Virus record (IMG/VR): IMGVR_UViG_3300015024_000020
Coordinates: 1 to 33,238 of that record
From: a virus
Length of the DNA stretch: 33,238 nucleotides
Reading direction: 5' to 3' (one strand)
How positions within the stretch are numbered: the first letter of the stretch is position 1; the number at the start of each line of letters is the position of its first letter. A program made the position numbers and the translations under genes. Of this stretch, positions 9,620 through 27,530 are shown one piece after another. The notes beneath the pieces were generated by a model. It was not told the DNA's origin. It saw nothing but the letters and a program-made list of their open reading frames with translations, and did not search any database.

Positions 9620-11746
9620 ATGGCAATCACTCGAACTTTTAACGGAGCAACGATTCTTAAGCCTGGCGCTTATTCGAAAATCGTTGTGGAGAACTTAACT
9701 GGTTTTCCGCTGCAAGCTTCCGGCACGGTAGGTATCATCGGAGAGGCAATCGGCGGTGCTCCTGGCGTCGTTGATGTCTTAAGCAAGGCGCAAATTCAAT
9801 CTGCAAGGGCTCGTTACAAAAGCGGACCTATCGCAGATGCACTTGCACTCATCGCAGAGCCTTCAAACGATCCGCGCGTGCCGAATGGTGCGAGCACCAT
9901 TATCGTTTGGAAAACAAATAACGGAACTCAATCGGCTCTAGGCCTTTTGAACAATTCCGGCAACGCGAAGATCGCACTGAAGAGCGCAAACTACGGTGCA
10001 GATGAAAACACTGACTCTGCGGCAGTGGCCGTCGGTTCGGTCGCAGACATTTACGCTCAAATCTTAGGCTCGATCAATGGACCTTTCACGCTTCCGGCGT
10101 CGGGTTCTCTGATTCTGAAAGTCGGAGGCGTCGTTTACACGTACATCTCGACTCTGTCTGCCGGTGTTCAAACCGCAGCTCAAGTAGTCGCCGACATGAA
10201 CGTGTCAGGGAGCTGGTCTCCTTCGAAGCCGGTTGTTGCAAGTCTTGTCGGTTCTGCGGTTCAAATCGCACTCGACATCTCAGCACTCCCGACGGCGAAG
10301 CATGACTACGGTTACATAGTTATTGACCCAGTTTCGACTCTCGATACCGTTCTCGGTATTGTTGGCTCGGTTCGAGGCCAAAAGGGCTCACGCATCCTCA
10401 CCTTCAAAAAGGGTTTGGTTACTGAGCAAATGTTGGAAGCTGGCGGCGTAGACCAAATCAGCATCCAGTACACCGGCACGGGAACAGACGCGAATCTTTC
10501 CATTGCTCCAACTCTCGGCGCTCTTACAATGACCTCGGTTGTTGCAGGTGCGGCGGGTGACGACCTCAACATCGCTTTGAGCGATGCTTCTGGAAATCCG
10601 ACAATCACTCTCGGTCAGTTGGTGGATCTCATCAATGCAACGGGCAAATACTCGGCACAACTTCTTGGCCCTTCTGGCGCGGTAAACGCACTCGAACTCG
10701 ATCACTACAATATGATTGAGTGCAAGGCGATGCCAGTGAAGCTTCGCATGGACGACTTCTTGTTGGTGAATATCATCAACACGACTTCGGCGATCATGAC
10801 GGCAACGTCAGTCGGCGGATACGGCGAGCTTGCTCCGGCAATCGCGACCTTCCTCACTGGCGGATCTGACGGCGTATCGACGAACACAGATTTCGCAAAT
10901 GGCTTTGAAGCCTTCCAAGAAGAGCGAATCAACGTGGTCGTTCCTTTGATTTCGGCTTCGGTCGGATCTCTGGACATCGACTCCATCAACGCTTTGGCTT
11001 CGGCCCATGCGACTTGGGGTTGGAGCACGGACGGCAAGAGCGAGCGTGCATGTTTCGTTTCAAAAAAAGGTACGAAAGCAGAATTCAAAAAAGCGTGTCA
11101 GACGTTGAACAACGGTTTCGTGAATTGCTTCGGTCAAAGCGTCACTGTGTTGAATTCAAAGAATACTTTGGCGAATCAAGATCCTTGGGCATTTGCATGT
11201 GTCGCGGCAGGAATGCGCGCGGGTCTCGAAGTCGGCGAGCCGCTGACTTTCAAAGGGATCAACGTAAACAACTTGTTCGTAGCCGATGGCTCTTGGAACC
11301 CGAAAACGGATTTCAACGAGATGATCGCTGCGGGTTGTACGATTGGCGAAGGTGTTGACGGCGGTGGCTTCCGAATCGTACTCGGCAACACGACCTACGG
11401 CATCGACCCAAGCTTCGTCTACAATCGTGAATCGGTTGTTCAAGCTGCGGGCTACGTGGCTTACGATCTTCGATTTAACCTTGAACTCACGTTCACTGGT
11501 ACGAAGGCGAAGACCGGATCGGCGACTGCAATTGCAAACTTCATCAAATCGCGAATGACCGCTTATCTCGGTGCGGACATTATTGTTGGAGACGACTTGA
11601 ACGGGGGCCTTGGTTACTACGCGAAAACTCTTCGTGTAAACGTCAACGGTGATGCCGCTGCGATTAATGTGGCGATCACTCCTGTCCAAGGTATCGACTT
11701 TATCTTGCCGACCATTTACTTGGCCGACATTCAACAATCTGCATAA
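9620..11746 (+). CDS. Contractile tail sheath protein
   Basis: The 708-residue product has the sheath hallmarks. The N-terminus reads 'ILKPGAYSKIVVEN' followed by 'TVGIIGEAIGGAPG', the usual start of the conserved sheath domain. The C-terminal domain ends with 'NVAITPVQGIDFILPTIYLA', matching the conserved sheath handshake region. The sheath surrounds the inner tube and contracts to drive it into the host. A strong AAGGGGGAGAAAAG ribosome-binding site fits its high copy number. Residues 155-250 form an inserted domain ('GSLILKVGGVVYTYI', 'TAAQVVADMN', 'VGSAVQIALD') like modules in the baseplate J protein of this window. Such insertions project on the sheath outside. The length is above that of simple sheaths, about 480 residues, because of this and other insertions. 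Confidence 0.93.
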   Translation: MAITRTFNGATILKPGAYSKIVVENLTGFPLQASGTVGIIGEAIGGAPGVVDVLSKAQIQSARARYKSGPIADALALIAEPSNDPRVPNGASTIIVWKTNNGTQSALGLLNNSGNAKIALKSANYGADENTDSAAVAVGSVADIYAQILGSINGPFTLPASGSLILKVGGVVYTYISTLSAGVQTAAQVVADMNVSGSWSPSKPVVASLVGSAVQIALDISALPTAKHDYGYIVIDPVSTLDTVLGIVGSVRGQKGSRILTFKKGLVTEQMLEAGGVDQISIQYTGTGTDANLSIAPTLGALTMTSVVAGAAGDDLNIALSDASGNPTITLGQLVDLINATGKYSAQLLGPSGAVNALELDHYNMIECKAMPVKLRMDDFLLVNIINTTSAIMTATSVGGYGELAPAIATFLTGGSDGVSTNTDFANGFEAFQEERINVVVPLISASVGSLDIDSINALASAHATWGWSTDGKSERACFVSKKGTKAEFKKACQTLNNGFVNCFGQSVTVLNSKNTLANQDPWAFACVAAGMRAGLEVGEPLTFKGINVNNLFVADGSWNPKTDFNEMIAAGCTIGEGVDGGGFRIVLGNTTYGIDPSFVYNRESVVQAAGYVAYDLRFNLELTFTGTKAKTGSATAIANFIKSRMTAYLGADIIVGDDLNGGLGYYAKTLRVNVNGDAAAINVAITPVQGIDFILPTIYLADIQQSA

Positions 11747-20961: not shown

Positions 20962-23900
20962 ATGGCACTTTTTCAGCCCAGAGTCTTTCAGCAAATTTTC
21001 GCAGGCATGGTCGGACGACTTATTTCGTCTACTCCGCTTACGGATTTAAACATCGGTTCGGTTTTCACCACGATGCTCGAAGCCGCCGCTCAAGAAGATG
21101 ACGAACAATACTTTCAAATGTTGGAGATCATTCGAGGCTACTCGCTTGATACTGTTTCTGGATCTGATCTCGATGCTCGTGCGTATGAGTATTCTCTTAG
21201 TCGTCATCCGGCGGCTTATGCCTCTACTACCGTAAGCCTCATCGACACGGCGGTCGCAAAGGTCTTTACGAATGCCTACTCGGGTCTTCCGGGATCGGCT
21301 TCGGGAACTTTCTTAATCAACGGAAACGCACTCACTGGTTTCCCGGCCTTGGGCAGAATAATCATCGGTCGCGGCACTCCGCGCGCAGAGACGGTGAGCT
21401 ACAGCTCTATAACTCAGAACACAAATTATGTGACGTTCAACCTGGCCGGTGCCCTGGCGTATGATCACGGCACTGACGAAACGATCATTCTATCTCAGGC
21501 GGGAAACCGTTCGGTAAACGCCGGGATCATCGTCATCGTTCCGGCGTCTGACATTAACCCAAAAATCGCCTATCGACTTACTTCGGCGGCGACAATTTTG
21601 GACGGCGAACGTCGGGTTGATCTTGTTCCGGTGACGGCCTCGGTCGCAGGCTCCCAAGCGAACGTACCGATTGGCTCGATCACGGCATTCCAGGCTCTCC
21701 CGTTCGCAACGGCGACCGTGTTCAATGTCGCGCGCGTAACCAATGGAGCGGATCTCGAATCCGATCAGGACCTTCGCGATAGAATTAAATCGACCATTCA
21801 ATCTCTCTCGCGCGGGACTGGCCGCTCGATCACGACAAACGTGACCGGGGTTCTTTCAGTAACGGACAACAAACGAGTTGTTTCGGCGTCACTCGTTGAG
21901 CCGACCATCCCTGCGGACGTGGTAAAGCTCTTCATCGACGATGGAACCGGATTCATTCCGAGCTTCGCTGACGTGGGTTTTGAAACCGTGGTTCAACAAG
22001 CTCAGGGTGGAGAAAAGTTTCTATTCGCTCAAAACGTGCCGATGGTGAAGGCCTTTGTCGAAACTCAGAACTCCGAGCCTTACAACCTGATTGGCGGCGA
22101 GACTTTATTCGTCGCCGTTGGCGGCGTGATCGAAACCATTGCTTTTCTTTCGACTGACTTCTCGACTCCGGGCAAAGCTTCGGCCCAAGAAGTTCTGACG
22201 AAGATCAATGCGACCGCAAACTCCTTTGAGGCTCGCGTGACAAAGACCGGAGCAACGGTTCGAATCTTTTCTCGGACAAACGTAAACGAACAGATCCAGG
22301 TCACTGGCGGAACAGCGAATGCGATCCTTGGCTTCCAAACGAGCTTGAAATTTACGTCGTTCCTTTACCGGGTTTCAAATTCGAAGGCAAAGCTCCTCAC
22401 GAAGGACGGCGTTACGGCGTCGGTCCAGTGTACAAGATCGGCGGCATATTCATTTCCGACCGAGAAGAACTTGGTTATCATTGTTGACGGGGCGACCGAA
22501 GATCCTCAGATGGCATGGATAAAGCCCTCTGACTTCGCCTCTCCGACGTCTGTCACCGCACCCCTGGCAGTGGCGATCTTAAACTCAAGACTCGCTGGCG
22601 TGACAGCGCAGACCGTTTCAAACGGCCTTCAAGTGTCACTCACCTCAAAGACTCCACTCTCAACCGGCTCGATGGTTCAAGTAGTTGAGAATTTCACAAA
22701 CGTATTTAATCTGTCAGGTTCTTACACTGACATCACGGCGGCGCTAAAGATAAGTGCTCAAATTTCGCACAACGCTGCGGACACACTCTTTCTTGGACAC
22801 GCGACCGTGGCCTTCCAAAGCTTGTACGTCTCGGCGGTAACTTCAGGTGGCGGAGGAAATCCAAACTTCCAATTTTATAACGGGACCTCTTGGCAAACAT
22901 TCGTTCCACTCGATGAAACTTCAAACCTCACGACGACGGGTCACTTGCTCTTCCGTCTGCCGGGGACTTGGACTCCAAGTGTGGTGAATGGAGTTCTTGC
23001 CTATTGGATCAAGGTTGCGAACATTCCCTCGACCACCCTCGCAATGAAGATCTGTTCCGGAAATGAAGTCTTTGGCTTCCCAGAGGCCAACGTCGTCGGC
23101 GCGAACAAAGACTACACACTCAACCGATTTTTGGGTCAGATCGAACTCGAACAAACATTAAACACTCTCGATTCGGTAACCCTTGGATCTCTCGACACTC
23201 GCGCATCGGTTGTATCGGTCGCAGGAAACTACGGTCTGGCGGGCGGCGAAACGCTTAATATTTTGATCGACGGCATTGCGCAAAGCTCAACCATCCAACT
23301 TTCAGATCTTTCAAATCCAGGCTCCGCTCTTCCTTCCGAGGTTGTAGCCCGCCTGAATAAGGATTTAAACGGAGCTACAGCTTTCACGGTCTCTGGCGGA
23401 ACTCAGATCAAGATCCAAACAAACACTTGGAAAGGTGGACTCCTCCAAGTCACTGGCGGAGCGATGAACGTATATCTTCAGCTCTCGACGGACGGTCAGA
23501 CATCGTATGATCCGCACGTCCCGGCACTTTTGTCGGTCGCGGGGCCATTTGCGTTCCAACCTGGCGACAATATTATCGCAGTTCTCGACAACAACTCGGC
23601 AAACAACTTCACTACGCCATGCACGGTCCCATCAACACTGACGGGAGCCACAAGCTCGACGTCAATGACTGATGGAGCCCTCTACAATACGTTCGTGAAT
23701 GCGTCGGATCTCACCGGCTTTGATTTCATTTACACTCAAACTTATTTCAAGACGATTCAGGCGATTCAATTCAGCTCTTCAAAGACTTCTAAGTCGCTGG
23801 TCAACATCGCGTACACGACAGGGGCAACGGCTGGAGCCGAGGCGGTTGTCGTTGCTGGAAACAATATCGTTTTCCAAATCGCATCTGGCGTAACGACGGC

Positions 23901-24717
23901 AAGCAAGATTTTGTCGGTCTACAACGGCTCGACAGCGGCGAAGGCTCTCGTAAGCGCAACGCTTGTCGGATCTGGTTCGGCGGCACAAGTTTCGACCGCG
24001 CAGACTTTTCTCGCAGCGGTTCGAGCAACAATTGCCTCGTACACTATTCCGTCGGGCCTGCTCACTCTCGCATCGGGTCTTCCGGTAACACCTGCGGTGG
24101 GAGACACCTACGAGGTCGCGCCGAAAACTTCTGCACAAGTCGTGTCCTTCTGGTCGAACAAACGAGTCGCCCTTGTAACGACGGTGGCCGAAGTTCGAAC
24201 GGCTGCGGGCGGAACGAGGGTACAGATTGCGTCTCTCGTCTCAGGCGAATCGGCTTCAGTTCGAATCCCTGGCGGCGAAGGAAACAACGCACTTCAGTTC
24301 TCAACTTCAATACTGATCGGCACTGACGGGTACAGGAACTACACAGGTCTTGCGCAGCTCGCGCAGTGGACAGTCGATGGAAGGTCTTCAGATCTTGCGA
24401 AATATCCAGGCTTCCGAGCTGCGGGTGTTCAAGTCGAAGTCGCAGAGGCCGTGAAAGTTCCAATCTCGGTTTCGATGACCATCACGACGCAAGAAGGGAT
24501 CACGCTTTCTTCGATTTCAAACGACATCAAGTCTGCGGTTTCTTCTTACATTAACTCTCTGCCAGTTGGCGGAGAGGTTGTCGTCTCCTCAATCGTCGCG
24601 GTTGTAAAAGCAGTGAACGGGGTATTCGACGTAAGGGTGAATAGTCCGACGGCAAACGTGCCTATCTCTTACAACGAATTAGCGAGGGTCGTAGAGAGTA
24701 CGATCACGGTGGGCTAA
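20962..24717 (+). CDS. Giant baseplate J-like wedge protein with inserted modules
   Basis: The 1251-residue product has the start of baseplate J or gp6-like proteins ('DLNIGSVFTTMLEAAAQEDD', then 'SGSDLDARAYEYSL') and the corresponding end ('LPVGGEVVVSSIVAVVKAV', 'GVFDVRVNSP'). J proteins form the ring of wedges holding the tail sheath start. They are usually 300-500 residues. Here about 800 extra residues sit between. They include at least three modules of a hook-IN-like pattern (about 373-463, 495-585, 755-845: 'GGETL...IDG', a helix with 'EV...N', 'VTGGA.N..L'). They also include a module with 'FYNGTSWQTFVP' and 'WTPSVVNGVLAYWIKVANI' (637-693), typical of surface-exposed beta domains. Sheath residues 155-250 carry a related module. 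Four bases of the stop region overlap the next start (CTAATGG). Confidence 0.85.
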   Translation: MALFQPRVFQQIFAGMVGRLISSTPLTDLNIGSVFTTMLEAAAQEDDEQYFQMLEIIRGYSLDTVSGSDLDARAYEYSLSRHPAAYASTTVSLIDTAVAKVFTNAYSGLPGSASGTFLINGNALTGFPALGRIIIGRGTPRAETVSYSSITQNTNYVTFNLAGALAYDHGTDETIILSQAGNRSVNAGIIVIVPASDINPKIAYRLTSAATILDGERRVDLVPVTASVAGSQANVPIGSITAFQALPFATATVFNVARVTNGADLESDQDLRDRIKSTIQSLSRGTGRSITTNVTGVLSVTDNKRVVSASLVEPTIPADVVKLFIDDGTGFIPSFADVGFETVVQQAQGGEKFLFAQNVPMVKAFVETQNSEPYNLIGGETLFVAVGGVIETIAFLSTDFSTPGKASAQEVLTKINATANSFEARVTKTGATVRIFSRTNVNEQIQVTGGTANAILGFQTSLKFTSFLYRVSNSKAKLLTKDGVTASVQCTRSAAYSFPTEKNLVIIVDGATEDPQMAWIKPSDFASPTSVTAPLAVAILNSRLAGVTAQTVSNGLQVSLTSKTPLSTGSMVQVVENFTNVFNLSGSYTDITAALKISAQISHNAADTLFLGHATVAFQSLYVSAVTSGGGGNPNFQFYNGTSWQTFVPLDETSNLTTTGHLLFRLPGTWTPSVVNGVLAYWIKVANIPSTTLAMKICSGNEVFGFPEANVVGANKDYTLNRFLGQIELEQTLNTLDSVTLGSLDTRASVVSVAGNYGLAGGETLNILIDGIAQSSTIQLSDLSNPGSALPSEVVARLNKDLNGATAFTVSGGTQIKIQTNTWKGGLLQVTGGAMNVYLQLSTDGQTSYDPHVPALLSVAGPFAFQPGDNIIAVLDNNSANNFTTPCTVPSTLTGATSSTSMTDGALYNTFVNASDLTGFDFIYTQTYFKTIQAIQFSSSKTSKSLVNIAYTTGATAGAEAVVVAGNNIVFQIASGVTTASKILSVYNGSTAAKALVSATLVGSGSAAQVSTAQTFLAAVRATIASYTIPSGLLTLASGLPVTPAVGDTYEVAPKTSAQVVSFWSNKRVALVTTVAEVRTAAGGTRVQIASLVSGESASVRIPGGEGNNALQFSTSILIGTDGYRNYTGLAQLAQWTVDGRSSDLAKYPGFRAAGVQVEVAEAVKVPISVSMTITTQEGITLSSISNDIKSAVSSYINSLPVGGEVVVSSIVAVVKAVNGVFDVRVNSPTANVPISYNELARVVESTITVG

Positions 24718-25865: not shown

Positions 25866-27530
25866 ATGATGCAGAGAGCACAAAGATTTGTAGCCGATCA
25901 GAGATTTGATCTTCCCCAGTACGATTCAATGATCGCGCTCATTTCCGCTGAGTTTCAGGCTTACAATAAGTCTCTTTTCTCGCCGAAAAGCCGCATCGTT
26001 CAAAACTGGAAAATTGTAAATGCTGGCGGCTTAGGCGTATCCGTCGATCAGTCAATAGACTCAACTCTTTTTGACTCTCAAAACTTGGGCAATGAAGGGT
26101 TCATTTACTATCCAACGACCTCTCCTCAGCTTGTTCTTGGCCTGATCGACAACTCGACAAACTACGTTGAAGTTCAAGTCATTGCGACCACGACAGCTCC
26201 CGACACGGTGGCGATCTGGGATACGACGGCAAACGGCGGAACCGGAGAAGAGTTCACTCAAAACGTAAACACGGTGGCCGAACAGCTCCCAATCCTTGTT
26301 TCAAACGTCGTTGCCTTCACCGGCTCGACTGACCATCTTCCTCTCGCGATTGTTACAACCTCGGGCGGCGCGATCACTTCTATTGTCGATTCTCGAAAGT
26401 TTCTCTTTCACGTCGAAACCGATTGGGCGTGGCCGACAGTCCGAAGTGATGTGACAATTGGGTCTGTGAAAAATATGTTCGATGCACTCGCTACGATTTC
26501 AAAAGAAATCAAAGGCACGAACGGTTGGACCGACACACAGTGGTCTTCAACGAAAACTCTCAAAGAATATCAAAATCTATTTTATTACGACGGCGGAGTC
26601 CTCGCATGGGACGGGACCACTCTCAACATTCCAGGAAACTTGGGATTTGAAATTGCAGGCCGCGCGGTTCCTTACGCGGTGGCGGCAGGATCTTACGCGA
26701 TCCCAGAAGGTTCTGCCCTCTATATTGACATTCCGCCGAACACTCCGGCGGGCGCGATCACTCCGGTCATCGCTGCAATGAGTGCAGTCCCAATCAACCC
26801 AACGATGACGGGTTTCTCGCCGTACTTACAGGTTGTCTTCTTCCGTCGGAACAACAAGCTCTACGGCTCAATGGATATTCCAGAATTAGATCCTGGCGAA
26901 TCCGCAGTGATCGGCGAATCAATTGCTCAATCACTTCAGGGTCGTCTCGGTGTGGTGGATGACGCTCACTACGAAGCCTACAGCTCAACAAACTATGTTT
27001 CGTCTTCGGCCTCATACCCTGAAGCAATTTCCGATCTCGATGTCGCTTTAAATACGGCTTACAACGAAATCAACGCGGCGCTGACGGCTCACGCGCTTGA
27101 AGATATTTTTAGCGTCACCTCTCCTCAAACAGATTTCACTTCGAGCGACATCACTTGGTCGCCAGACAATACGATCCCTGATATTCAGGTTTACCGAAAT
27201 GGTCAAAAGCTTCTGCTCGCGAGCGACGGAACGTCTGCGACAGGTGAATATAAAAAGACTTCTGGAACTTCAATCACGTTCTTTGACACGATCAACGGAT
27301 CGGTCGCAGTTCCCGCGCGAGTTATTGTTCGCCAGGAAAGAACGGGCGGTGGAGCGGTTCTAGATTTGACCAACATCACGGTCAATCCTCAGCCGTTGAC
27401 CAATGGGTCTCTTTCGATTGGAACGACAGCAAAATCATGGAGTTCGCTATATCTCCACGACACAGTGACTTCTGGAATTTACAAACTCTCAGTTACAAGC
27501 GGCGTCTTAGACGCTGTAAGGGTGAATTAA
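25866..27530 (+). CDS. Tail fibre or baseplate-fibre adaptor protein
   Basis: The 554-residue product starts at ATGATG after AAGGGG. Its N-terminus is helical ('RFDLPQYDSMIALISAEFQA'), which could dock to the gpI-like wedge encoded just before. Residues 50-380 are beta-rich with 'DHLPLAIVTTSGGAITSIVD', a common fibre linker. Residues about 420-500 hold the small module 'DIQVYRNGQKLLLASDGT' with 'GTSITFFDTINGS', also seen as a free protein at 29314-29607. The C-terminus ends in 'SLSIGTTAKSWSSLYLHD', the usual strand pattern before fibre tips. The size and layout fit a proximal fibre or a fibre-attachment protein. No peptidase or hydrolase motif is evident. Confidence 0.65.
   Translation: MMQRAQRFVADQRFDLPQYDSMIALISAEFQAYNKSLFSPKSRIVQNWKIVNAGGLGVSVDQSIDSTLFDSQNLGNEGFIYYPTTSPQLVLGLIDNSTNYVEVQVIATTTAPDTVAIWDTTANGGTGEEFTQNVNTVAEQLPILVSNVVAFTGSTDHLPLAIVTTSGGAITSIVDSRKFLFHVETDWAWPTVRSDVTIGSVKNMFDALATISKEIKGTNGWTDTQWSSTKTLKEYQNLFYYDGGVLAWDGTTLNIPGNLGFEIAGRAVPYAVAAGSYAIPEGSALYIDIPPNTPAGAITPVIAAMSAVPINPTMTGFSPYLQVVFFRRNNKLYGSMDIPELDPGESAVIGESIAQSLQGRLGVVDDAHYEAYSSTNYVSSSASYPEAISDLDVALNTAYNEINAALTAHALEDIFSVTSPQTDFTSSDITWSPDNTIPDIQVYRNGQKLLLASDGTSATGEYKKTSGTSITFFDTINGSVAVPARVIVRQERTGGGAVLDLTNITVNPQPLTNGSLSIGTTAKSWSSLYLHDTVTSGIYKLSVTSGVLDAVRVN

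Follow-up and report, generated by a model that had tools for sequence, protein, structure and literature searches.

J-type wedge subunits are among the most conserved parts of contractile tails, and the one of phage T4, gp6, comprises about 650 residues. In a viral sequence of 33,238 nucleotides (IMG/VR record IMGVR_UViG_3300015024_000020, positions 1 to 33,238, referred to as the window), a reading frame on the plus strand at 20962-24717 stays open for 1251 codons and encodes a protein of 1251 residues that had been annotated initially as a baseplate protein with a recognisable J-type start and end. What is this protein, which is more than twice the usual size, what fills its additional length, and what could the added parts do in a baseplate? 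The assignment to the J family could be established by several independent matches. Pfam Baseplate_J (PF04865) is found at residues 201-303 with 56 bits, well above its curated cut-off of 21.1, PHROG 6 “baseplate wedge subunit” matches with an E-value of 8e-33, and the last ~90 residues (1156-1251) separately match the tail and baseplate families phrog_1608/4226, while an NCBIfam scan of the protein gave nothing. The genes around it have the order hub, spike, LysM/tube initiator, J and gpI as judged by Pfam and PHROG matches, and this order is retained in relatives. As these family matches coincide with the baseplate gene order of a contractile tail, the protein is a true J-type (T4 gp6-like) baseplate wedge subunit, and the initial reading of its two ends was correct. 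The fold of the J core and the C-terminal domain agrees with this, as structure searches matched it to J of phiCD508 (Z 14.4), gp31 of A-1(L) (Z 14.2) and the Mu protein (Z 11.4), where the high rmsd of such multi-domain matches is expected with flexible proteins. The C-terminus alone matches the C-terminal domain of the R-type pyocin protein PA0618 (Z 11.2).

Between these ends, the initial annotation had described some 800 inserted residues of beta modules, three of them following one pattern at about 373-463, 495-585 and 755-845. Indeed, a self-alignment of the long J proteins gives strong off-diagonal matches, and a repeat HMM places these three modules within a few residues of the positions first given (Table 1). 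Profile-profile scores between the repeats (R1-R3 149.7, R1-R2 104.6, R2-R3 95.0, R1-R4 63.8, R3-R4 56.6) lie far above the controls, which reached at most 20.2 among 240 column-shuffled comparisons and ~9-26 for unrelated segments; significance was judged by these shuffled controls and not by HHalign E-values alone. The count of three was nevertheless incomplete, because a fourth copy, split by a nested insertion, had been missed. Also missed were a beta-sandwich domain that follows IN2 and an ancestral segment that divides the insert. This segment, which we call the strap (“DYTLNR...GQIEL”), is present in small and middle-sized J proteins directly before the C-terminal domain, as seen in alignments and with the HMM. 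The insertion therefore consists of two blocks, [IN1-IN2-sandwich] and [IN3-IN4], one on either side of the conserved strap. The estimate of ~800 residues is correct in sum, as the blocks contribute ~350 and 370 residues and a further domain at ~85-185 is also missing from the homologues of 456-475 aa. This domain A corresponds in position to the insertion domain of A-1(L) gp31 (81-180; PMC10966104) and to domain II of XM1 gp16 (87-178; PMC10457771). The preceding residues 1-84 belong to the best-conserved stretches (93% identity to L001), are helical in the model of a mid-sized homologue and have an HMM match in nearly all complete homologues. J thus tolerates ~725 added residues at two fixed points beside the strap, which provides a map of wedge sites that can be enlarged.

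Table 1. Segments of the long J protein and the adjacent gpI-like gene in the window.
Segment	Residues	Position	Strand	Evidence or remark
J N-terminal helices, core-bundle part	1-84	20962..21213	+	93% identity to L001
Domain A	~85-185	21214..21516	+	missing from small J class
First half of J core	186-361	21517..22044	+	Pfam; small J aligns up to 361
Module IN1	373-459	22078..22338	+	HMM 98.6 bits; strands and helix 327-402 in model
Module IN2	495-581	22444..22704	+	HMM 64.6 bits; secondary structure as IN1
Beta-sandwich (“YW”) domain	~592-712	22735..23097	+	VIA match to LME-1 9efk_M
Ancestral J strap “DYTLNRFLGQIELEQTL”	713-746	23098..23199	+	alignment with small J from its residue 317; HMM
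Module IN3	756-841	23227..23484	+	HMM 84.7 bits; XM1 sheath and FliD fold matches
Module IN4, first part	862-891	23545..23634	+	HMM 11.0 bits; strands 816-832 in model
Nested insertion in IN4	~892-1051	23635..24114	+	alignment occupancy 0.19-0.47 over 926-1025
Module IN4, second part	1052-1114	24115..24303	+	HMM 46.2 bits; helix and strands 1003-1057 in model
Second half of J (C-terminal domain)	1119-1251	24316..24714	+	pyocin PA0618, phrog_1608; small and middle J align
gpI-like baseplate protein, presumed wedge partner	376 aa	24717..25847	+	phrog_4056/1160 “baseplate protein”

A structure model was built for residues 55-1251 from 28 related sequences (mean pLDDT 84, pTM 0.63), and in this model all four copies are predicted to consist of two strands, a helix and three further strands. 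In structure searches, IN1 matched Vibrio flagellins (Z 10.8, rmsd 2.4-2.6 over ~95 residues) and FliD (Z 8.8), the IN2 region matched FliD and the sheath of E217 (Z 8.3 each), and for IN3 the matches were the XM1 sheath insertion domain (Z 10.8 at 24% identity) and again FliD (Z 8.6). Taken individually, these three thus all lead to FliD, flagellin or sheath insertion domains with Z 7.5-10.8 and rmsd 2.4-3.2, where values near 8 may reflect merely a common arrangement. Secondary structure, profile scores and the individual matches to these folds together indicate that the IN modules have a predicted flagellin/FliD-like fold in common, so that structure prediction and search returned several modules with one fold and not unrelated domains. 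The original designation “hook-IN-like” consequently holds for the fold (flagellin Z 10.8, FliD Z 7.5-8.8) and fails for the Pfam family Flagellin_IN (PF07196), which has no match at all in the window record and a curated cut-off of 22.7 bits. No long-J record reaches this cut-off; below it, matches appear in 4 of 14 records (best 18.9 bits), at a loose limit that most control genomes also pass, and a protein scan detected the family in one of 20 J homologues (E 0.00066). A PDB sequence search with the module profile returned ShosT as its sole result (E 0.016), which we consider a chance match and not a relative of the module. The fold itself has been described in sheaths, podovirus nozzles, auxiliary capsid proteins, FliD and flagellin (PMC12846349), and the XM1 sheath insertion domain was likened to FliD by its authors (PMC10457771). 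The sheath encoded in the window (9620-11746) is long, with 708 aa, and its residues 156-194 weakly resemble an IN module (score 27, where shuffled controls reached 20), from which we do not claim a relationship. The sandwich domain resembles a protein from the portal-tail complex of phage LME-1 (9efk_M; Z 16.0, rmsd 1.9, 126 aligned), and a weak sequence match leads to the same chain; a literature search found no paper on this complex. An identification of the sandwich domain as HIV protease was rejected as chance, as that match stems from the repeat scoring of tethered dimers.

Two scans of IMG/VR yielded 76 related loci, in which complete J proteins come in three sizes of 456-475, 606-618 and ~1170-1450 residues, to which the 1925 residues of Myxococcus phage Mx1 have to be added. 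Small J proteins align with the long form at residues 1 to ~360 and again from ~1107, middle-sized ones resume from 1124, and in these short homologues of 456-618 residues the HMM found no IN module at the threshold used. The window J is thus indeed oversized, and the case that would have spoken against an insertion, a J homologue of usual size with the same internal sequence, was not seen. In a tree built from the J parts common to all classes, a single branch (support 77/94) separates the long class from the others; Mx1 stands adjacent to it with uncertain placement, and the middle and the small class each form one group (100/99). The long form is therefore one lineage and the insertion is lineage-specific, as the initial annotation had already considered. 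In a scan of genome contigs no relative was found, so that neither a bacterial host nor a prophage can be named, and in a tblastn search for the module Mx1 was the only phage record holding it. In two related loci the J frame ends early (L012:9114-9123, 1037 aa; L024:5046, 757 aa) and the homologous sequence goes on in another frame, which may be an assembly error or a disruption. In the nearest relative, L001, J and gpI are separated by ~440 additional bases that contain an open frame of 144 aa (L001:6939-7370); in the window these two genes are adjacent.

Outside J, the module is found almost exclusively in the neighboring gpI, and there in early branches. When nine long-J records (57-170 kb, Mx1 included) were scanned as a whole, all module matches fell into J or the adjacent gpI frame. 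Among three middle-J records scanned in the same way, two had no match and one had a single match in a 576-aa frame of unassigned kind (L084:375-2105, minus strand), which is the sole match outside J and gpI in these scans. The gpI proteins with IN modules belong to the early-branching long-J phages L073-L078 and to Mx1, and the gpI of the window is not among them. At the insertion site, middle-sized J has domain A once more, with a score of 71 where the next match reaches ~16, and gpI of the middle-J phages (the L030-L057 class) has 820-1111 aa instead of ~374 and matches domain A repeatedly, though weakly. Added together, J and gpI span 1429-1729 residues in the middle class; in the long class they have at least 1546, with a median of 1626 and a maximum of 2911 in Mx1. 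Although it is a correlation along few branches, this points to a wedge periphery made of one favored module per lineage. It is conceivable, although we regard it as doubtful, that each lineage copies one preferred domain, IN or domain A, into both J and gpI, that the two proteins pair via like modules, and that mass is traded between them while wedge size stays constant. If true, the strap region of J would be a general docking site at which lineages swap whole frame designs.

The segments of J do not diverge evenly. In comparison with L001, the N-terminal part, domain A, the J core and the C-terminal domain are 86-93% identical. The corresponding values fall to 77-82% for IN1-IN3, to 73% for the sandwich and to 67% for the nested insertion and for IN4 in its second part. 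The dN/dS ratio is 0.2 or lower in all segments where it could be computed, these values being rough as synonymous sites are near saturation. The reading frame is thus real and under purifying selection, and its outer parts change faster. Residues 935-1028 of the nested insertion were found by phmmer only in the closest relatives (L001, L002/L003, L068, L069), and in L018, L023 and L026 the fourth module is filled with longer, different modules. Within the core long class, J can be aligned from end to end at ~45-80% identity, the order of the blocks is strict, and IN1 contains several invariant residues. As it is alignable throughout and has a low dN/dS, the long J does not have the build of a fast-changing tip. 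Downstream there are fibre-like genes whose ends vary, and of the one at 25866 mainly the first 250 residues are kept in many relatives. As such genes follow J and gpI, the arms need not be the receptor-binding parts. Another small fibre-like family is found at 436-696, 715-1713 and 1719-2768, where an 86-aa protein resembles the C-terminus of a 332-aa protein (34%), whose N-terminus in turn resembles that of a 349-aa protein (37%).

The initial annotation had proposed that the wedges bear permanent surface domains that reach the cell envelope or dock fibres. Since the inserted blocks belong to J, they would be permanent arms, twelve per baseplate if the stoichiometry of A-1(L) holds, and together with gpI they could form an outer wedge frame that holds and spaces the tail-fibre proteins encoded just downstream and whose arms may swing outward at contraction. 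We give this fibre-docking frame about an even chance; direction of the arms, copy number, docking and movement are inferred by analogy with related machines. Most relevant in this respect is A-1(L), in which one gp31 copy puts its extra domain into the hub cleft and that of gp31B reaches out and holds the long tail fibre (PMC10966104), so that by analogy the docking of fibres appears better supported than a reach to the cell envelope. In the Anabaena system, one of the three extra domains of Cis11 contacts the fibre protein Cis13, one stabilizes the contact to Cis12 and one forms a cage (PMC8894136). In AlgoCIS, domain IV of Alg11 forms a spike cage that opens on contraction, and in Alg11 relatives the cage site binds short fibres (MACs) or fastens the whole machine to the inner membrane (PMC8894135). 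It counts against the frame that the blocks are inserted at another site than in gp31, where the extra domain corresponds to our domain A, and that the arms diverge faster than the core (67-82% versus 86-93% identity to L001), which would also suit receptor contact. We also know of no fibre-docking role for the flagellin/FliD-like domains of sheaths, nozzles and auxiliary capsid proteins.

The precedent of Alg11 and Cis11 can be read differently, with the inserted blocks pointing down and inward as a sleeve round the central spike that opens at tail contraction. Both oversized J proteins (7aeb_G and 7b5h_AH) appear in our structure search and both are reported to form spike cages (PMC8894135, PMC8894136); these, however, are whole-chain matches, and the Alg11 cage domain is described as carbohydrate-binding-module-like and not as IN-like repeats. 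Such a cage is in our opinion improbable. The faster divergence of the sandwich (73%) and the nested insertion (67%), and the different modules that the latter holds in different relatives, would fit a second permanent adsorption device, in which the arms, and above all these two parts, bind a surface glycan. Support by precedent comes from phage K8, where a mutant putative baseplate wedge protein binds core oligosaccharide (PMC9887876), and from the Alg11 cage modules, proposed as sugar binders (PMC8894135). Yet no carbohydrate-binding family was recognised in the window J with Pfam, NCBIfam or other searches, separate fibre-like genes with variable ends are encoded downstream, and the modules proper are conserved, with purifying selection acting on them, so that we think direct receptor binding by the arms is the less likely role and this device an unlikely one. 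Finally, the modules could be spacers without a specific partner that merely thicken or stabilize the wedge, as extra sheath domains with this fold exist and virion stability is one published suggestion for them (PMC9230969); the similar total length of J and gpI in the long and the middle class would then mean that bulk counts. The invariant residues of IN1 and the strict block order in the core long class, in turn, suggest more specific contacts, and we therefore consider plain spacers very unlikely.

Whichever role applies, each ingredient is already known by itself, be it the J family, the large inserts in J or the flagellin-like domains of phages. The J-type wedge proteins of A-1(L) (gp31), phiCD508, Mu, XM1 (gp16) and T4 (gp6) have the core and C-terminal domain as in the window J, and the matched phage J chains mostly have 290-480 residues, compared to 1251 here; in the literature searched, none of them is described with flagellin-like modules at the two sites used by the window J. 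The fold class of the IN modules is that of the insertion domains of myophage sheaths, namely XM1 gp6, A-1(L) gp9 (Z 8.4, 22% identity), E217 and Adele. The sheaths described in PMC10457771 and PMC12846349, however, have one such domain per subunit, whereas the window has four copies, and these are in a wedge protein. Among long J proteins of phages, the “Baseplate protein J-like” of uncultured Caudovirales phages (BFVD A0A6J5KUV1) matches the window J over 1145 columns. The J of Mx1 (1925 aa) shares both ends and has one clear IN module at the same site, with another IN module in the following gene, while the rest of its insert consists of other domains than in the window J. Both the Mx1 and the BFVD protein are annotated only as J-like, and the Mx1 genome paper contains nothing on the baseplate.

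What appears to be new, in that no description was found in the literature searched, is the presence of four copies in a phage wedge protein, arranged in two blocks around the strap, and their spread into gpI. As oversized J proteins with large inserts, Alg11 of AlgoCIS (a chain of 1011 residues) and Cis11 of the Anabaena thylakoid system (1227 residues) are like the window J (PMC8894135, PMC8894136). They differ in that they belong to injection systems and not to phages, and that their inserts form the spike cage, in Alg11 with carbohydrate-binding-module-like domains; the available text of these reports does not mention IN repeats. The window J thus adds to a tendency already known from contractile-tail machines and does not represent a machine of a new type. 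It links phage J to those wedge proteins of injection systems that bear cages, and Mx1 of Myxococcus, a phage in culture whose long J is related, offers a way to test what such arms do.
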